From Bryobacter aggregatus MPL3 (lineage in GTDB: Bacteria; Acidobacteriota; Terriglobia; Bryobacterales; Bryobacteraceae), in contig NZ_JNIF01000004.1 in the NCBI RefSeq assembly GCF_000702445.1, positions 682,001 to 746,000 on the forward strand: a stretch of 64,000 nt of DNA. The letters are read 5' to 3'. Positions within the stretch are counted from its first letter, which is position 1; every line of letters begins with the position of its first letter. Positions 54,667 through 64,000 of the stretch are shown here, piece by piece. Made by a program: the position numbers and the translations under genes. The notes under the pieces are model-generated. The model worked only from the letters and a program-made list of their open reading frames with translations, ran no database searches and was not told the DNA's origin.

Positions 54667-54683
54667 AACACACAGATGTAGTA
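54667..54683. promoter_or_regulatory. Possible BlaI-type operator
   Basis: The sequence ACA-GA-TGTAGTA (54672-54683) carries one full half-site TGTAGTA of the BlaI/MecI/CopY consensus TACTACA-N2-TGTAGTA; the other half is conserved only at its three inner bases. It lies 8 bases before the BlaI-type start at 54691, which fits autorepression. It could also affect the divergent oxidoreductase. Confidence 0.35.
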
Positions 54684-54690
54684 GATCCAA

Positions 54691-55074
54691 ATGCCGCAAC
54701 CGAAACTATCAAAACTTGAAATGCAAATCATGGACGTGCTCTGGAGTCGCGGCGCGCTGCCGATTCGCGAAATCCAGGAGGCCTTCCCGGCGAAGAATCG
54801 TCCCGCCTACACCACCATCCAGACCACCGTCTATCGTCTCGAAGAGAAGAAGGCGCTCAAGCGAGTGAACAAGGTGCTGAATGCTCATGTCTTTGAGGCG
54901 GTCATCACACGTCAGGCGGCGCAGGGCCGGCTGATCGACGAGTTGCTGAGCCTGTTCGGCGGCCGTACGCAACCGGTGATGGCCCATCTGGTGGAGACTG
55001 GCAAACTCACGCTCGACGATGTGCAGGAGACAGAAGAGCTCCTCAAAAAACTGGCGAAAGAGAATCCCCAATGA
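54691..55074 (+). CDS. BlaI/MecI/CopY-family transcriptional repressor
   Basis: A 127-residue winged-helix repressor (KLSKLEMQIMDVLWSRGALP at the start, then PAYTTIQTTVYRLEEKKALKR as the recognition region). The C-terminal dimerization helix carries GRLIDELLSLFGG. In beta-lactamase systems such repressors are cleaved after an M56-type sensor is activated. Here the next gene is an M56 protein overlapping by ATGA, the exact BlaI-BlaR1 arrangement. It probably represses its own operon, which continues into a TonB-dependent receptor and a VWA protein. Confidence 0.95.
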   Translation: MPQPKLSKLEMQIMDVLWSRGALPIREIQEAFPAKNRPAYTTIQTTVYRLEEKKALKRVNKVLNAHVFEAVITRQAAQGRLIDELLSLFGGRTQPVMAHLVETGKLTLDDVQETEELLKKLAKENPQ

Positions 55075-56810
55075 ATCTCTACGAACTGACTCCTTTTGCA
55101 AGCCACCTCTGGCAGTCCAGCTTGTTCACACTAGCTTGTGCCTTACTGAACTGGACTCTGCGCCGCCACCGGGCTTCGCTGCGCCATTCGATCTGGCTGG
55201 TCGCCTCGGCGAAGTTCCTCGTGCCGTTCTCCCTCTTTGTCCAACTCGGGCATCTCTGGCAATGGCGCAGCAGTACATCGACAATTGCCCCTCCCGTCTT
55301 CGAGGTGGCCGAGCAACTCAGCCAACCCTTTACGATGAGTTTTGATCCGGGCTTCGGGTTCCGGCCGCATACCAGTCACTACACCTCGATGCTGGCTGTG
55401 GTCTGGCTCTGCGGCTTTCTGGTCCTGCTTGCGCGCTGGTTGCGCCACGGATGGCAGATGCACCAGATCGAGCGCAACGCGCGTCCGCTGCCCATCGAGA
55501 CGCCCATCCCCGTTCTTGCTGGCGATTCGAGTTACGAGCCCGGTGTCTTTGGTATCTTCCGCCCTGTCCTGCTGATCCCCGAAGGTATCGCCGCCCGCCT
55601 CAGCGCTGCGCAACTCAACGCGATCATTGCTCACGAGCTATGCCATGTGCGGCGTCGCGACAATCTTGCTGCCGCCTTCCATATGTTGGTAAGCGCCCTC
55701 TTCTGGTTCCACCCGCTTGTTTGGTGGATCGGCTCGAGGCTGGTGGCAGAGCGCGAGAACGCCTGTGACGAAGAAGTGCTGGACCAGGGCCAATCGCCGC
55801 TGGTCTACGCCGAAAGCATCCTCAATGTTTGCAAGTTCTATCTGGAATCCCCCATCCCCTGCGCCTCAGGAGTCACCGGCGCTGATCTGAAGAAACGAAT
55901 CGAGACTATCATGACCCGTCGTCATTTTTCGCAACTCTCCCTGGCCCGCAAGCTGTTTGTTGTTGGTGCCGCCACTGCCGCCCTCTGTACACCGGTGCTC
56001 ATCGGCATCGCCACTGCGCCTCAAGTTCAGGCTCAGGATGCAGTCTCTCCCACCTTTGACGTCGTATCGATCAAGCCATCAGATCCGAATGGCCGGGGCA
56101 CCATGTTCCGAGTCGTGCCCGGTGGCGGACTGAACATCGTCGGCGCACCCGTGCGGGAGTTGATCATGTTCGGCTACGGCGTCCGGCAGTACCAGATCTC
56201 GGGTGGCCCAGGCTGGGTTGGGACGGAACGCTTTGATGTGACGGCAAAAGGCAGTGCCGATCCGAACGCGCCGTCCGACCCGCGGCAGTTGAACGAAGAA
56301 CAGCGTCAGGCTTTGCAGCTTCTGCTTCGGAAGCGCATCCAGGCCCTGCTCGCCGAGCGCTTCCAACTGCAGATGACTGAGGAGACCAAAGAGCTTCCTG
56401 TCTATCATCTGGTCGAAGCCAAGGGCGGCGCGAAGTTGAAAGTTTCTGATTCTGCTTCTAGTGCCGAGAACCGTTCCATCCGGATGCAACGAGGCATGTT
56501 GACCGTGGCGAGTATCTCTCTGACAGAAACGACGACCGCACTCTCTAACATCGTGGGGAGACCGGTGATCGATAAGACCGGCAAAGCAGGACTTTTCGAC
56601 CTGAAGCTCGAGTGGACGCCCGAAGGGGGCCCCGGTATCCCGGGCGGTCCCGGAGGTCCTGGGGGCGCTGAGCCTCCGCCGCCCGCCGACGCCGCCGGAC
56701 CCACCATCTTCACCGCACTGCAGGAACAGTGGGGTCTGAAGCTCGAATCGGCGAAGGGACCTGTGGTCACCTATCGCATCGATAGTGTCCAGAAGCCGTC
56801 CGCAAACTAG
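55071..56810 (+). CDS. M56 (BlaR1-like) metallopeptidase fused to TIGR03435-type domain
   Basis: A 579-residue membrane protein. The N-terminal M56 peptidase (about 1-310) has hydrophobic segments at about 14-30, 40-60 and 105-122, and the zinc motif HELCH at 188-192 (HExxH) followed by the NACDEEVL region. A further hydrophobic segment lies near 290-315. The extracytoplasmic C-terminus (about 325-575) matches the soil-bacterial TIGR03435 domain (PTFDVVSIKPSDPNGRG, then GAPVRELIMFGYGVRQYQISGG). A Gly/Pro-rich tract lies near 525-550. In BlaR1 the C-terminal domain is a penicillin-binding sensor; here it is replaced by a different domain. It probably senses an extracellular signal and cleaves the repressor. 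Confidence 0.92.
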   Translation: MNLYELTPFASHLWQSSLFTLACALLNWTLRRHRASLRHSIWLVASAKFLVPFSLFVQLGHLWQWRSSTSTIAPPVFEVAEQLSQPFTMSFDPGFGFRPHTSHYTSMLAVVWLCGFLVLLARWLRHGWQMHQIERNARPLPIETPIPVLAGDSSYEPGVFGIFRPVLLIPEGIAARLSAAQLNAIIAHELCHVRRRDNLAAAFHMLVSALFWFHPLVWWIGSRLVAERENACDEEVLDQGQSPLVYAESILNVCKFYLESPIPCASGVTGADLKKRIETIMTRRHFSQLSLARKLFVVGAATAALCTPVLIGIATAPQVQAQDAVSPTFDVVSIKPSDPNGRGTMFRVVPGGGLNIVGAPVRELIMFGYGVRQYQISGGPGWVGTERFDVTAKGSADPNAPSDPRQLNEEQRQALQLLLRKRIQALLAERFQLQMTEETKELPVYHLVEAKGGAKLKVSDSASSAENRSIRMQRGMLTVASISLTETTTALSNIVGRPVIDKTGKAGLFDLKLEWTPEGGPGIPGGPGGPGGAEPPPPADAAGPTIFTALQEQWGLKLESAKGPVVTYRIDSVQKPSAN

Positions 56811-59707: not shown

Positions 59708-61765
59708 ATGACCCGACGCGATCTGTTCTCCATTCCCCTGGCGGCGATGAGCCTGCGCGCCCAGGAACAACCCATCTTCAGCAGCAACACGCAGTTGGTC
59801 GTCGAAACAGTCTCGGTGAAGGATAAGAAGGGTAACTCAATCTCCGGCCTGACCGCTAAGGATTTCACGCTGACCGAAGACGGCAAGCAGCAAAGCATCG
59901 CCTTCGTCGAATTCCAAAAGCTGCCGGACGATCCCGCTCCCGACGCTGCCTATACGGCATCGGTAGCGCCGGTAGCGCGTCTGGCGCGGACTCAGATTGC
60001 TGCGGAGAAGCCCGGAGATATCCGCTATCGGGATCGCCGTCTCCTTGCGCTCTATTTTGACTTCTCGGCGATGCAGCCCGCCGATCAACTCCGCGCGCTG
60101 AGCGCGGCGCAGAACTTCGTCCGCAAGCAGATGACCACTGCGGATCTGATGGCGGTGATGATCTATTCGAGCGGCGCCGTGCAAGTGCTGGAAGACTTCA
60201 CCGCAGACCGAGCGAAGCTTCTCGAGACGCTGCAGACGTTGCTTGTGGGCGAAGAAGCAGAGACAGCCACCAATCCGGGCGATGCAAGCGCTGTCGATAG
60301 CGGCGCAGCCTTTGGACAGAACGACGCTGAGTTCAACTTGTTCAATACAGACCGGCAACTGTCGGCGCTGCAGACGGCGGCCACCATGCTCGGACGCCTG
60401 AGCGAGAAAAAGTCGCTGCTCTACTTTGCCAGCGGCCTGCGTTTGAATGGTGCCGACAATCAGGCGCAGTTGAACGCGACGATCAACGCGGCCATCCGTG
60501 CGGGCGTTAGCTTCTGGCCAATCGATGCGCGCGGGCTGGTGGCGACTCCGCCGATGGGTGACGCAACGCGCGGCTCGACAGGTGGCATCGGGATGTACAA
60601 CGGCGCGGCGGGAGGAGCGACGATGTCCAACTTCCAGCGTTCCCAAGATACCTTGTACGCGCTAGCTGCTGATACTGGTGGCAAGGCGCTGATCGATAGC
60701 AACGATCTGGGGAAGGGAATCGAGCAAGCGCAGAAGGCGACAAACAGCTATTACCTGATCGGCTACTACACCTCGAACCCGGCTCTCGACGGCAAGCTGC
60801 GGCGGGTCAAGATCACCCTCAATAATGGCCTGATCGCGGACCTCGATTACCGGCAAAGTTTCTACGCCGGCAAGCAGTTCCAGAAGTTCACCGCCGCTGA
60901 TAAGGAGCGCCAACTGGAAGACGCCCTGATGTTGGGCGACCCGATCACGGAACTGACCATTGCGCTCGAGGTGAACTACTTCCAGTTGAACCGCGCCGAG
61001 TACTTTGTCCCGGTAGCGGTGAAGATTCCGGGTAGTGAATTGGCGCGCGCCAAGCGCGGCGGCGCCGAGCGGACTCTGATCGACTTCATGGGTGAAATCA
61101 AGGAGGGGCAGCTCACGGTTGCGAATGTGCGCGACAAGGTTGAGCTGAAGCTCAGTGGCCAGACGGCGAGCGAACTGGCCACCCACCCCATCACTTATGA
61201 CACCGGCTTCACGCTGCTGCCCGGCAGCTACACGCTGAAGATCCTCGCACGGGATGCCGAGACCGGGCGCATCGGAACCTATCTGCGCAGCTTCGTGATT
61301 CCCAATCTGAATCGGGAAGACAAGCGGGTGCCGCTCAGTTCGGTCGTCTTGAGTGGCCAGTCGGTGGACATGCAAGAGGCGCTCTTCAATACCAAAGATA
61401 AGCTGAAGGCGCAAAGTCTGAATCCCCTTGTGCAGGGCGGGCAGAAAATGATTCCGAGTGTGACGCGCGTCTTCAGCCGCTCGCGTGAGATGCAGATTTA
61501 CTTACAGACCTACCAGCAGGAGCCGGAGATAGCCAAGCCGATGGTGGGCTATGTCAGCTTCTACCAGGGGGCGAAGAAAGTCTTCGAGACTGCCCCCATC
61601 GTCGGCGCCGAAGCAGCGCCGGGACGCCTGAAAATGATTCCTTTGCTGTTTCGCATCCCACTCGGAAAAATGCCTCCGGGAGAGTACAACTGTCAGGTGA
61701 CAGTGCTCAACCCGGAGGCGCAGAGAGCAAGTTTCTGGCAAGCGCCAGTGATGCTGATTCCTTAG
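59708..61765 (+). CDS. VWA-domain protein, TIGR03436-type
   Basis: A 685-residue exported protein with a Tat-like start (TRRDLFSIPLAAMSLRAQ). It has the TIGR03436 pattern of Acidobacteriota VWA proteins: VKDKKGNSISGLTAKDFTLT, then the VWA core (LLALYFDFSAMQPADQL with DxS motif, and KSLLYFASGLRLNGADNQ). The later half has beta-rich regions (YYLIGYYTSNPALDGKLR, PISSLSRSRE-type strands and FYQGAKKVFETAPIVG). It starts immediately after the receptor stop, with no gap. It probably functions in the periplasm or on the surface together with the receptor. The last 4 bases overlap the reverse-strand RND fusion gene. Confidence 0.88.
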   Translation: MTRRDLFSIPLAAMSLRAQEQPIFSSNTQLVVETVSVKDKKGNSISGLTAKDFTLTEDGKQQSIAFVEFQKLPDDPAPDAAYTASVAPVARLARTQIAAEKPGDIRYRDRRLLALYFDFSAMQPADQLRALSAAQNFVRKQMTTADLMAVMIYSSGAVQVLEDFTADRAKLLETLQTLLVGEEAETATNPGDASAVDSGAAFGQNDAEFNLFNTDRQLSALQTAATMLGRLSEKKSLLYFASGLRLNGADNQAQLNATINAAIRAGVSFWPIDARGLVATPPMGDATRGSTGGIGMYNGAAGGATMSNFQRSQDTLYALAADTGGKALIDSNDLGKGIEQAQKATNSYYLIGYYTSNPALDGKLRRVKITLNNGLIADLDYRQSFYAGKQFQKFTAADKERQLEDALMLGDPITELTIALEVNYFQLNRAEYFVPVAVKIPGSELARAKRGGAERTLIDFMGEIKEGQLTVANVRDKVELKLSGQTASELATHPITYDTGFTLLPGSYTLKILARDAETGRIGTYLRSFVIPNLNREDKRVPLSSVVLSGQSVDMQEALFNTKDKLKAQSLNPLVQGGQKMIPSVTRVFSRSREMQIYLQTYQQEPEIAKPMVGYVSFYQGAKKVFETAPIVGAEAAPGRLKMIPLLFRIPLGKMPPGEYNCQVTVLNPEAQRASFWQAPVMLIP

Positions 61766-64000
61766 TTCCAGCCGCCGCCGAGGGCGCGGTACAACTGAAC
61801 GACAGAGACTAGTTCTGCCTGGCGCAATTGTGCCAGAACGAGTTCGCCCTGAAATTGATTGCGCTGTGCATCCAGAACTTGCAGATAGCTGTCGAGGCCA
61901 CCCTGATAGCGCAGGATGGACAGCCGGCTTGATTCGTTCAACGCATCCACCAGCTTTTGCTGTTCCTGCATCTGTTCTGCGTTCTTGCGATAGCCAACTA
62001 GCGAATCGGAGACTTCGCGGAACGCGGTCTGGATGGTCTTCTCATAGGTGGCCAGCATCTCGCGCTTGGCGGCTTCGCTGTAGCGGACATTCGCGCGGAG
62101 CTGGCCGGCATTGAAGATGGGAATGGTCGCTGTGGGCGCGGCATTCCATTGACGGGCGGCTCCGGTGAACAGATCGAGCAGCGGCCTTGCCTGGGCTCCC
62201 AGAAGGCCTGTCAGCGTGATCTGCGGAAAGTACTCTGCACGCGCCGCGCCAATGCGTGCGTTTGCTGCAATGAGCACCTGTTCTGCCTGCCGGATGTCCG
62301 GACGGCGGGCGAGTAGATCGGAGGGCAGCCCTGGCGGAATCTTCTCCGGCCCATTCAGTTCCGACAATCGCTTACCGCGCTTCACGGGGCCTGGGTTCTT
62401 TCCCAGCAGAATGCTCAGCGCATTCTCCTGTTGTTCGATCGCCCGTTCGTTTGCGACAATCTGCGAGGTCGCAGTTCGAAAGAGTTGCTCGGCTTGCTGG
62501 ACGTCGAGACCGGTAGAGACGCCGCGCTCGAGCCTCACGTTGGTGAGGCGTAAGCCGTTCTCCGCAATCTCCTTCGTCTTCTTTGAGATCTCGAGTTCGG
62601 TGTCGAGTTCCCGGAGAGAAAGGTAGGCGTCCGTGACATCGGCCACGAGCGACGAGATGACGGCGCGGCGAGCTTCTTCCGTGGAGAGATACTGCGCCCG
62701 CGCCGCCTCGTTCAGACGGCGGAGCCGGCCCCAGACATCCAGCTCCCAACTCAGCGCGAAGCCAGCCTGGGTATAGGTCACGTCGAGATTCGTTCCTCGG
62801 GGGAGAAAGCGATTCTGGCCGATCTGCGAGATGCGGTTGGCGCTCAAGTTGCCGGACGCAGTGACATTCGGATACAGATTAGCTTGCTGTGCGGTGAGCT
62901 GGGCGCGCGCCTGGAGCACGCGCTCGGCGGCAATCCGGACGTCGTAATTCTGCTTGAGCGCGGTGTCGACCAGTTCGGTAAGAACTTCGTCTTCAAACAG
63001 TGTCGACCACTTGCGATCGGCAATCGATTCGGTTGCAACCGGGCCGTTATCGGCCCGGAACTGCGGCGGCGCCGGCAAATCCGGACGCTTGTAGTTCGGG
63101 CCAACGGCGCAACTGGAGAAGAACATCACCAGCAGTGACATTGCGGTTGCCAAGGCCGGCCCTTTGCGGAAGCGCTCGGCCCAGGTCTCGGTGACGACAT
63201 AGAGCATCGGCACAAAGAAGATGGCGAGCAAGGTGGCGGCCAACATACCGCCAAACACCGTCGTCCCCAGAGCGCGGCGGGATGCCGCACCGGCGCCGGT
63301 TGCATACACCAGCGGCACCACGCCAAGAATGAAGGCGAAGGAGGTCATGATGATCGGGCGCAAGCGCAGTTGAGCCGCAGCCACCGCGGCGTCAAAGGGC
63401 GACATGCCTTCCTCCCGCCGTAGCTTCGCAAACTCGACAATCAGAATCGCATTCTTCGAGGCGAGTCCAATCAGTGTGACGATGCCAATCTGCGTGTAAA
63501 CGTCGTAGGCATAAGACCGTGCGAGCACCGCCAGCAAGGCTCCTAAAATGCCCAGCGGAACAGCAAGAATGACGGCAAAGGGGATCATCCAGCTCTCATA
63601 CTGCGCGGCGAGGAAGAGGAAGACGAGGATTGAGGCGAAACCAAAGATATAGACTTCCTTGCCCTCCGATAACTTCTGTTGGTACACCGTTCCGGTCCAC
63701 TCATAGCCAAAGCCCTGCGGCAGGACTTCTTTGGCCACCCGCTCCATGGCCTCGACAGCCTGGCCCGAGGTGTAGCCGGGCGCGGCGGATCCAATCAGCT
63801 TCGCACTGCGGAAACGGTTGTAGCGATAGATCACCTCAGGCGAAGTGGTATCGTGCATCGTCACCAGGGTGCTGAGCGGCACCATGTCGTTGGTGGCAGA
63901 ACGGACATAGTAGCGATTGACGTCTTCCGCGCGATCGCGGAAGTCCGGTTCCGCCTGCATGACCACGCGCCAGGTGCGGCCAAAGCGATTAAAGTCGTTG
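61762..64000 (-). CDS. RND efflux permease fused in frame to outer-membrane factor, 5' end cut by window edge
   Basis: One uninterrupted frame carries the C-terminal part of an AcrB/HAE1-type permease and a complete OprM/NodT-type outer-membrane factor. The frame is open to the window edge (NDFNRFGRTWRVV... is typical AcrB). Numbering from the GTG at 63966, permease segments include QYESWMIPFAVILAVPLG (122-139), GLASKNAILIVEFA (167-180) and RLRPIIMTSFAFILGVVPLV (201-220). The permease ends near PMLYVVTETWAERFRK (253-268). A hydrophobic stretch ALATAMSLLVMFFSS then leads to Cys286 in a lipobox-like FFSSC followed by AVGPNYKRP, the standard beginning of NodT-type lipoproteins. The factor continues to GGGWN. 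No stop and no good ribosome site separates the two. The upstream adaptor (MFP) is beyond the edge. Confidence 0.9.
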   Translation of the reverse strand, partial: NDFNRFGRTWRVVMQAEPDFRDRAEDVNRYYVRSATNDMVPLSTLVTMHDTTSPEVIYRYNRFRSAKLIGSAAPGYTSGQAVEAMERVAKEVLPQGFGYEWTGTVYQQKLSEGKEVYIFGFASILVFLFLAAQYESWMIPFAVILAVPLGILGALLAVLARSYAYDVYTQIGIVTLIGLASKNAILIVEFAKLRREEGMSPFDAAVAAAQLRLRPIIMTSFAFILGVVPLVYATGAGAASRRALGTTVFGGMLAATLLAIFFVPMLYVVTETWAERFRKGPALATAMSLLVMFFSSCAVGPNYKRPDLPAPPQFRADNGPVATESIADRKWSTLFEDEVLTELVDTALKQNYDVRIAAERVLQARAQLTAQQANLYPNVTASGNLSANRISQIGQNRFLPRGTNLDVTYTQAGFALSWELDVWGRLRRLNEAARAQYLSTEEARRAVISSLVADVTDAYLSLRELDTELEISKKTKEIAENGLRLTNVRLERGVSTGLDVQQAEQLFRTATSQIVANERAIEQQENALSILLGKNPGPVKRGKRLSELNGPEKIPPGLPSDLLARRPDIRQAEQVLIAANARIGAARAEYFPQITLTGLLGAQARPLLDLFTGAARQWNAAPTATIPIFNAGQLRANVRYSEAAKREMLATYEKTIQTAFREVSDSLVGYRKNAEQMQEQQKLVDALNESSRLSILRYQGGLDSYLQVLDAQRNQFQGELVLAQLRQAELVSVVQLYRALGGGWN

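Follow-up and report, generated by a model that had tools for sequence, protein, structure and literature searches.

To our knowledge, systems that pair an M56 protease with a BlaI-type repressor are known almost only from beta-lactam resistance. In these systems, the drug is bound by the C-terminal domain of BlaR1 (PMC7593790, PMC9834060) and displaces the first extracytoplasmic loop (EL1), which fills the active site of the sensor (PMC9834060). The scissile bond of Staphylococcus aureus BlaI is placed between N101 and F102 (PMC9834060), and TACA/TGTA is given as the operator motif of BlaI and MecI (PMC5460165). The locus studied here lies in a stretch of 64,000 nucleotides from Bryobacter aggregatus MPL3 (Acidobacteriota; contig NZ_JNIF01000004.1, positions 682,001 to 746,000), which is hereafter called the window. 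In this locus, a gene coding for an M56 protease fused to a TIGR03435/DUF3738 domain follows a blaI gene and precedes the genes of an outer-membrane beta-barrel and of a TIGR03436 VWA-domain protein. We propose, with a probability of roughly two thirds, that blaI and the fused gene form a proteolytic switch of the BlaI/BlaR1 kind that controls its own envelope operon. What such a switch senses is probably the state of the cell's own envelope, not the presence of an antibiotic.

The fused protein and its likeness to BlaR1

The initial annotation had described the product of the fused gene as an M56 peptidase that keeps the HELCH zinc site and the membrane part of BlaR1 and ends in a TIGR03435 domain. 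Both identifications hold: the M56 family PF05569 matches with 115 bits and the model discussed below resembles BlaR1 with Z-scores of up to 17.0, and the TIGR03435 profile is matched over its full length (194 bits for a cut-off of 40). The related Pfam family DUF3738 (PF12543) covers amino acids (aa) 363-573 with 166.6 bits (cut-off 22). All 21 aligned fused proteins have the same zinc ligands (H188, E189, H192 and E229); this set consists of the window protein and 20 of the 21 fused open reading frames (ORFs) from the related loci presented in the next section (L072, whose frame is broken, was left out). A full-length AlphaFold2 model, for which 21 aligned fused proteins served as input, has a mean predicted local distance difference test score (pLDDT) of 77.2. 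Its residues ~5-275 superpose on four full-length S. aureus BlaR1 entries with Z-scores of 15.5-17.0 and root-mean-square deviations of 3.7-4.7 Å over 227-232 residues, the best cryo-electron microscopy matches being 8exs (Z = 17.0) and 8ext (Z = 16.8), at 16-18% identity. The loop that corresponds to EL1 is also marked by a motif, [QRL]PF, which 13 of the 18 fused proteins compared from the main lineage contain (shuffles gave 0.85 on average and 4 at most). L063, L113 and L057, the last of which has an N-terminus that looks frame-damaged, were not part of this count.

An extracytoplasmic location of the DUF3738 domain is supported by analogy with the topology of BlaR1 and by the exported look of its free relatives, in which a strongly hydrophobic segment precedes the domain in 78 of 105 scorable ORFs, against 9 of 131 for segments within the domain.

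Recurrence of the fusion and gene order

The best 80 of at least 517 stretches encoding relatives were retained and gave 79 loci, all titled Acidobacteriota, Granulicella sp. S156 (L082) among them; since these are the closest relatives, they are not a random sample. They contain 131 ORFs bearing DUF3738, of which 110 are free and 21 are fused to M56, so the fusion is not due to chance. A blaI gene lies at most 200 bp upstream of 19 of the 21 fused genes, with a 4-bp overlap in 13. As for the remaining two, the sequence of L051 starts within the gene and L072 has a blaI before its broken M56 frame. All 20 fused genes whose locus includes upstream DNA are therefore preceded by blaI. The usual gene order is blaI, m56-duf3738, a run of any number of further duf3738 genes, the outer-membrane barrel and the TIGR03436 VWA gene, and several related operons do have free DUF3738 copies between the receptor and the barrel. 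The gene that follows the fused DUF3738 run is a barrel in 13 of 21 cases, lies on the opposite strand in four and is of another kind in three, the last run being at a contig end. As background, a barrel comes next after 21 of the 78 runs made up of free DUF3738 genes only, and barrels represent 41 of the 913 called genes. The VWA gene comes after the barrel in 12 of these 13 loci, with an incomplete copy in L056 and L082; the odd one out is L080. As the genes were delimited by a simple rule based on length that gives preference to labelled ORFs, some calls are likely to be wrong, including those of some opposite-strand neighbours.

Among 61 genomes searched for DUF3738, 41 have none and two (G027 and G057) have 45 and 46 matches, some of them in tandem. 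A search with the fused protein matched 38 plasmid records, none of which covers 80% of it, as the matches all fall within its first 335 residues.

A conserved element upstream of blaI

Upstream regions were compared for the window, 19 fused-gene loci and two additional loci (L044 and L053) in which the M56 gene is broken or outside the locus sequence. The hexamer TAGTAG occurs within 90 bases upstream of blaI in 18 of these 22 regions, and in 19 once the blaI start of L114 is moved. In 1000 mononucleotide shuffles it was present in 0.46 regions on average and in three at most, and its expectation over all 79 loci is 0.0084 per 90 bases on one strand. The regions without it are those of L063 and L113, both of a different M56 lineage, and that of L056, where the blaI start is unsure. 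In the window, the stretch bearing the hexamer reads TGTAGTAGA (54677-54685), and eight regions have two copies 21 bp apart. The classical operator TACA-NN-TGTA was also considered: a site with one mismatch was found in 5 of the 21 regions scanned (one each in the window, L046, L061 and L082, and two in L053) and an exact one in none, the conserved part being TAGTAG. The palindromic site of the window, with its single mismatch, reads CACAGATGTA.

Genomic context in the window

The features of the operon are listed in Table 1. Eleven bases separate the end of the fused gene from the barrel gene. Beyond the operon, a single stop-free frame on the reverse strand (61762-63966) seems to join the end of an RND-type transporter to an outer-membrane factor lipoprotein (CAVGPNYKRP), both labels being given by eye. 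The genome as a whole has four M56 matches above the cut-off and 69 barrel-family matches, some of which are pieces of a single gene. Other blaI-M56 pairs are present in it, one with a long C-terminal part devoid of named domains (L003) and one with a carboxypeptidase-regulatory-like and TonB_C-like part (L004, by eye); TAGTAG is found nowhere in the 3.8-kb stretches around these two.

Table 1 Features of the blaI/M56-DUF3738 operon, in positions of the window
Feature	Position	Strand	Remarks
Putative BlaI-type operator half-site, ACAGATGTAGTAGA	54672..54685	+	Five bases before the blaI start codon
blaI, BlaI/MecI/CopY-type repressor, 127 aa	54691..55074	+	PF03965, 82.2 bits (cut-off 22.6); aligns with S. 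aureus BlaI 1sd4
M56 peptidase and TIGR03435/DUF3738 fusion	55071..56810	+	579 aa, ATG start; first 4 bp overlap the blaI stop
M56 membrane/protease part, aa 15-280	55113..55910	+	PF05569 (Peptidase_M56), 115.4 bits (cut-off 31)
QPF motif, aa 85-87, in the loop corresponding to BlaR1 EL1	55323..55331	+	Extracytoplasmic loop before the third membrane helix (predicted)
HELCH zinc motif, aa 188-192	55632..55646	+	E229 is the third ligand by alignment with BlaR1
Last membrane helix before the ectodomain, aa 291-315	55941..56015	+	From the full-length model
TIGR03435/DUF3738 ectodomain, aa 327-579	56049..56807	+	TIGR03435, 194 bits, profile positions 1-241 of 241 (cut-off 40)
First half of the probable internal duplication, aa ~345-449	56103..56417	+	hhalign of the halves
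Second half of the probable internal duplication, aa ~469-572	56475..56786	+	hhalign; helix/strand order in the model
C-terminal PSAN tail, last residue Asn	56796..56807	+	C-terminal pattern shared by DUF3738 ORFs
Outer-membrane beta-barrel, 961 aa	56822..59707	+	PF25183, 534.3 bits; N-terminal carboxypeptidase-regulatory-like domain PF13620, 40 bits
TIGR03436 VWA-domain protein, 685 aa	59708..61765	+	220.6 bits (cut-off 81.25); start abuts the barrel stop

Structure and C-terminus of the DUF3738 domain

The domain was modelled (aa 325-579) from an alignment of 124 sequences, namely the window and 123 DUF3738 domains from the loci, with a mean pLDDT of 90.9. The initial annotation had suggested comparing this part with known ligand-binding folds, and no convincing match came of the comparison with the PDB: the best Foldseek match has an E-value of 0.24, the best VIA-align match a Z-score of 3.7 over 72 residues, and a profile search of PDB sequences with the domain returned E-values of 0.4 or worse. 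The missing match is not proof of a new fold, and DUF3738 may also have an enzymatic role. Some positions are nearly invariant: R430 is present in 124 of 124 domains, and W382, T503 and G555 are each present in at least 120. A glycine/proline-rich insert of the window protein (GGPGIPGGPGGPGGAEPPPP, aa ~519-540), located before the last helix and strands of the domain, is modelled with low confidence.

That the domain is an internal duplication is well supported, if not proven. The order of strands and helices repeats across its two halves in the model, and hhalign aligns one half with the other in register with a score of 25.6 (P = 5e-4), which is reached in none of 300 column shuffles (largest 20.9); when one half is reversed, the scores are 16.6 and 17.2. 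The claim is kept short of proven because the probability given by the program is only 31%. The STN domain, whose elements follow the order strand, helix, strand, strand, helix, strands, was considered as a relative on account of this secondary structure. Homology with it (PF07660) was not supported, as the hhalign probabilities obtained with alignments of 32 and 31 STN stretches from Acidobacteriota (0.23-0.84%) do not rise above those of reversed controls (0.15-1.33%). No STN structure is present among the Foldseek and VIA-align matches shown for the model of aa 325-579.

The proteins also share their very end. Among 124 ORFs with a domain complete at its C-terminal end and a stop codon inside the locus, the last residue is Asn in 111, Asp in 10, Glu in two and Pro in one, and 97 end in P[ST]xN. 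Asn ends 19 of 20 fused proteins; in the fused-gene loci, 136 other genes with a product of 200 aa or more were called, and 8 of these products end in Asn. The exception (L060:5240-7420) is an M56-DUF3738 protein with a C-terminal extension of 168 aa that is TonB_C-like by eye.

Several variants of the architecture were observed. In several free proteins (e.g., L086, L097, L102 and L114), DUF3738 is preceded by an additional domain some 100 residues long (GTWQG...YEGKLS...GTWTQG), which in L082:14009-16105 is located between the M56 part and DUF3738. One M56 protein bears two tandem DUF3738 domains (L075:12755-15208). In L026, a weak DUF3738 match (51 bits) is in frame with a thioredoxin-like stretch (FWATWCAPC).

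Evolution of the protease and of its ectodomain

In the phylogeny of the M56 parts, 20 of the 22 fused proteins form one clade (support 100/99, from a bootstrap that had not settled). The other two, from L063 and L113, fall among M56 proteins of a different type, and a single clade for all 22 is rejected (approximately unbiased test, p-AU = 5.9e-8); the fusion has therefore arisen at least twice. The second M56 lineage with DUF3738 (L063:7151-8791 and L113:8957-10657) has its own kind of BlaI, and another M56 ORF lies nearby in L063.

The history of the ectodomain is different in that fused and free copies are mixed. On the tree of the 124 domains, the fused label (22 rows) requires 19 changes, for a mean of 20.5 with shuffled labels, and 96 of 500 shuffles are as low; the well-supported branches alone force only four. 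A second tree was restricted to 51 of the 124 domains, comprising 21 main-lineage fused domains, the free ones from the same loci and free ones from seven further loci that were hand-picked as near kin (one long-branched row was dropped). Here the label requires 15 changes (shuffled mean 16.5), of which well-supported branches force three, and a single clade of fused domains is rejected (log-likelihood difference of 296, p-AU = 4e-7). Both domain trees come from quick searches and contain many weakly supported forks. On the smaller one, L082 (support 99) and L075 (95) each have a fused and a free copy that are each other's closest relatives, with weaker pairings in L091 (91, unresolved) and L078 (88). 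The M56 chassis is thus mostly of one descent and its ectodomain is shared with free copies; as to the direction of the exchange, the domain may have jumped onto the receptor or budded off from it. The initial annotation held that the TIGR03435 domain stands in place of a penicillin sensor. This is right as regards the architecture, with the domain in the sensor position and no penicillin motifs, and has to be given up as regards descent, which shows recurrent fusion of a domain held in common with free copies.

A proposed switch and its alternatives

The zinc site, the BlaR1-like fold and topology, the TIGR03435 domain in the sensor position, the blaI gene upstream and the conserved element are most economically read as parts of a relay from a sensor to a protease, in which DUF3738 could plausibly be the sensor, by analogy with BlaR1. 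We infer the following course of events. BlaI, bound to a TAGTAG-type operator in front of its own gene, would repress blaI and the M56-DUF3738, barrel and VWA genes. The DUF3738 domain, which would lie outside the inner membrane, would change state on the appearance or disappearance of a partner, and this change would reach the zinc protease by way of the last membrane helix and the first extracytoplasmic loop. The protease would then inactivate BlaI, presumably by proteolysis, and thereby turn the operon on. In an alignment, the N101-F102 bond of S. aureus BlaI corresponds to H99-L100 of the window BlaI, and L or F is kept at the second scissile position in the main-lineage BlaI proteins inspected by eye. 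The recurrent gene order, the conserved [QRL]PF motif in the loop and the mixing of the ectodomains with free copies also speak for this reading. The partner would most likely be a protein of the envelope system whose genes lie next to the switch, namely the barrel, the VWA protein or a free DUF3738 protein, and not a beta-lactam. The signal is more likely to be an envelope protein than a small molecule because free DUF3738 copies, most of which look exported, sit between the receptor and the barrel in several related operons. The barrel and VWA protein, as conserved partners, point to a protein in the envelope no less than to a small ligand.

A more specific form of this proposal, which we find doubtful, is that the ectodomain mimics a subunit: it would be a tethered copy of an exported DUF3738 component of the barrel/VWA system that it controls, repeatedly exchanged with the pool of free copies, and would report whether the partner belonging to this system is free or engaged in the envelope. 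If so, the near-invariant C-terminal Asn tail, which free and tethered copies have in common, would contribute to the surface that is recognised. The protein would then be a self-monitoring receptor of the BlaR1 type serving an outer-membrane machine, and antibiotics would play no part in it.

Several observations weigh against the envelope-monitoring switch. The TIGR03435 match of the fused gene is the only one in its own genome by profile search; with no free copy there, the partner in this organism would have to be the barrel or the VWA protein. The residues of the window BlaI at the aligned cleavage site (H99-L100) are different from those of S. aureus BlaI. The next gene is not a barrel after 8 of the 21 fused runs, one of them at a contig end, and neither Foldseek nor VIA-align nor the profile search relates the DUF3738 domain confidently to a PDB entry. 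The counts of TAGTAG come from the very loci in which the motif had been recognised, and the shuffles overstate its case somewhat for this reason. A wider regulon was considered and rejected: the pattern ACRNNNRTAGTAGA has four matches in the genome, against eight for a reversed control, and the 3-kb stretches around the three other matches contain no match to blaI, M56, barrel, VWA or DUF3738.

Other scenarios may explain the architecture. It is possible, although we find it unlikely, that DUF3738 is a classical sensor of a small ligand, such as a soil compound, a cell-wall fragment or an antibiotic, and that the switch turns on a barrel serving uptake or export. The drug-binding C-terminal domain of BlaR1 is a precedent (PMC7593790 and PMC9834060), and the barrel gene directly downstream and the nearly invariant residues of the domain (R430, W382, T503 and G555) are in line with such a function. 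Yet no known fold gives a convincing match, and the free DUF3738 copies in related operons, mixed in descent with the ectodomain, fit a module for protein-protein contacts better. Alternatively, DUF3738 could be the working part, an exported envelope protein and perhaps an enzyme, that the M56 part anchors while signalling occurs elsewhere or has been lost. Most DUF3738 ORFs are indeed free and preceded by a hydrophobic segment, free DUF3738 genes can also precede a barrel, and on the domain tree the fused copies cluster no more closely than they do with shuffled labels. Nevertheless, a mere anchor would not need the zinc site, the blaI gene alongside and the upstream element, all of which are kept, and this makes the scenario improbable. 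Finally, a beta-lactam sensor with a very divergent penicillin-binding domain is hardly credible: weak VIA-align rows do include PBP3, PBP4 and PBP5 (Z = 2.1-2.9), the window protein has a KTG string (aa 502-504) and 57 of 124 domains contain SxxK at some position, but Z-scores below 8 may reflect a common arrangement only according to the tool's own note, the lysine of KTG is outside the positions conserved in 80% of the 124 domains, SxxK, [SY]x[NDC] and [KH][ST]G follow each other in order, with gaps, in only two of them, the NCBIfam BlaR1 equivalog model NF000326 gives 87.4 bits to the fused protein for a cut-off of 400, and its Pfam rows up to E = 0.1 include no transpeptidase or beta-lactamase family.

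Significance

Searches of the available literature for TIGR03435, DUF3738 and TIGR03436 found no paper, and a search for BlaR1 in Acidobacteria yielded nothing of bearing, judged by title; the consulted part of PMC3174227, which deals with Solibacter paralogues, holds nothing on the DUF3738 family. On the basis of the family searches, we know of no description of the operon, the upstream element, the exchange of the ectodomain, its internal duplication or the terminal Asn. Some entries of public databases carry the name "M56 and DUF3738 domain-containing", and because of these names the bare architecture is probably not new. What the locus adds is a recurrent, operon-linked branch of the M56/BlaI systems with a different ectodomain. 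The gene order and the upstream element suggest that an M56 receptor may have had its sensor exchanged in the course of evolution. They also predict which genes would be controlled and which proteins are candidate signals, making the function of DUF3738 directly testable.

Comparison with known systems

With BlaI/BlaR1 and MecI/MecR1, the window system shares an M56 protease with the HExxH...E ligands and, in the model, the BlaR1 fold over aa ~5-275, an adjoining repressor gene, a C-terminal domain preceded by the last membrane helix, and a conserved motif in the first extracytoplasmic loop. Unlike BlaR1 and MecR1, its receptor has neither the penicillin-binding domain, which is class D beta-lactamase-like, nor the motifs of that domain. 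The genes downstream code for a barrel and a VWA protein in place of a beta-lactamase, the repressor has other residues than S. aureus BlaI at the aligned cleavage site, and the operator-like element is of the TAGTAG type, doubled with a 21-bp spacing in eight loci. A different likeness concerns the STN domain of TonB-dependent transducers and the N0 domain of secretins, in which the order of elements is similar to that of each DUF3738 half, with a barrel encoded next door in the present case. Signalling of the FecA/FecR type is the model for this comparison, which is one of analogy and not of descent. M56 proteins in which the C-terminal part is of another type (TonB_C-like or carboxypeptidase-regulatory-like, labels given by eye) have the blaI-M56 pairing in common with the window and differ from it in their ectodomain. 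The TIGR03435/DUF3738 family, for its part, is mostly free in the related loci and forms the ectodomain of a protease in the window, the full-length profile match being common to both.

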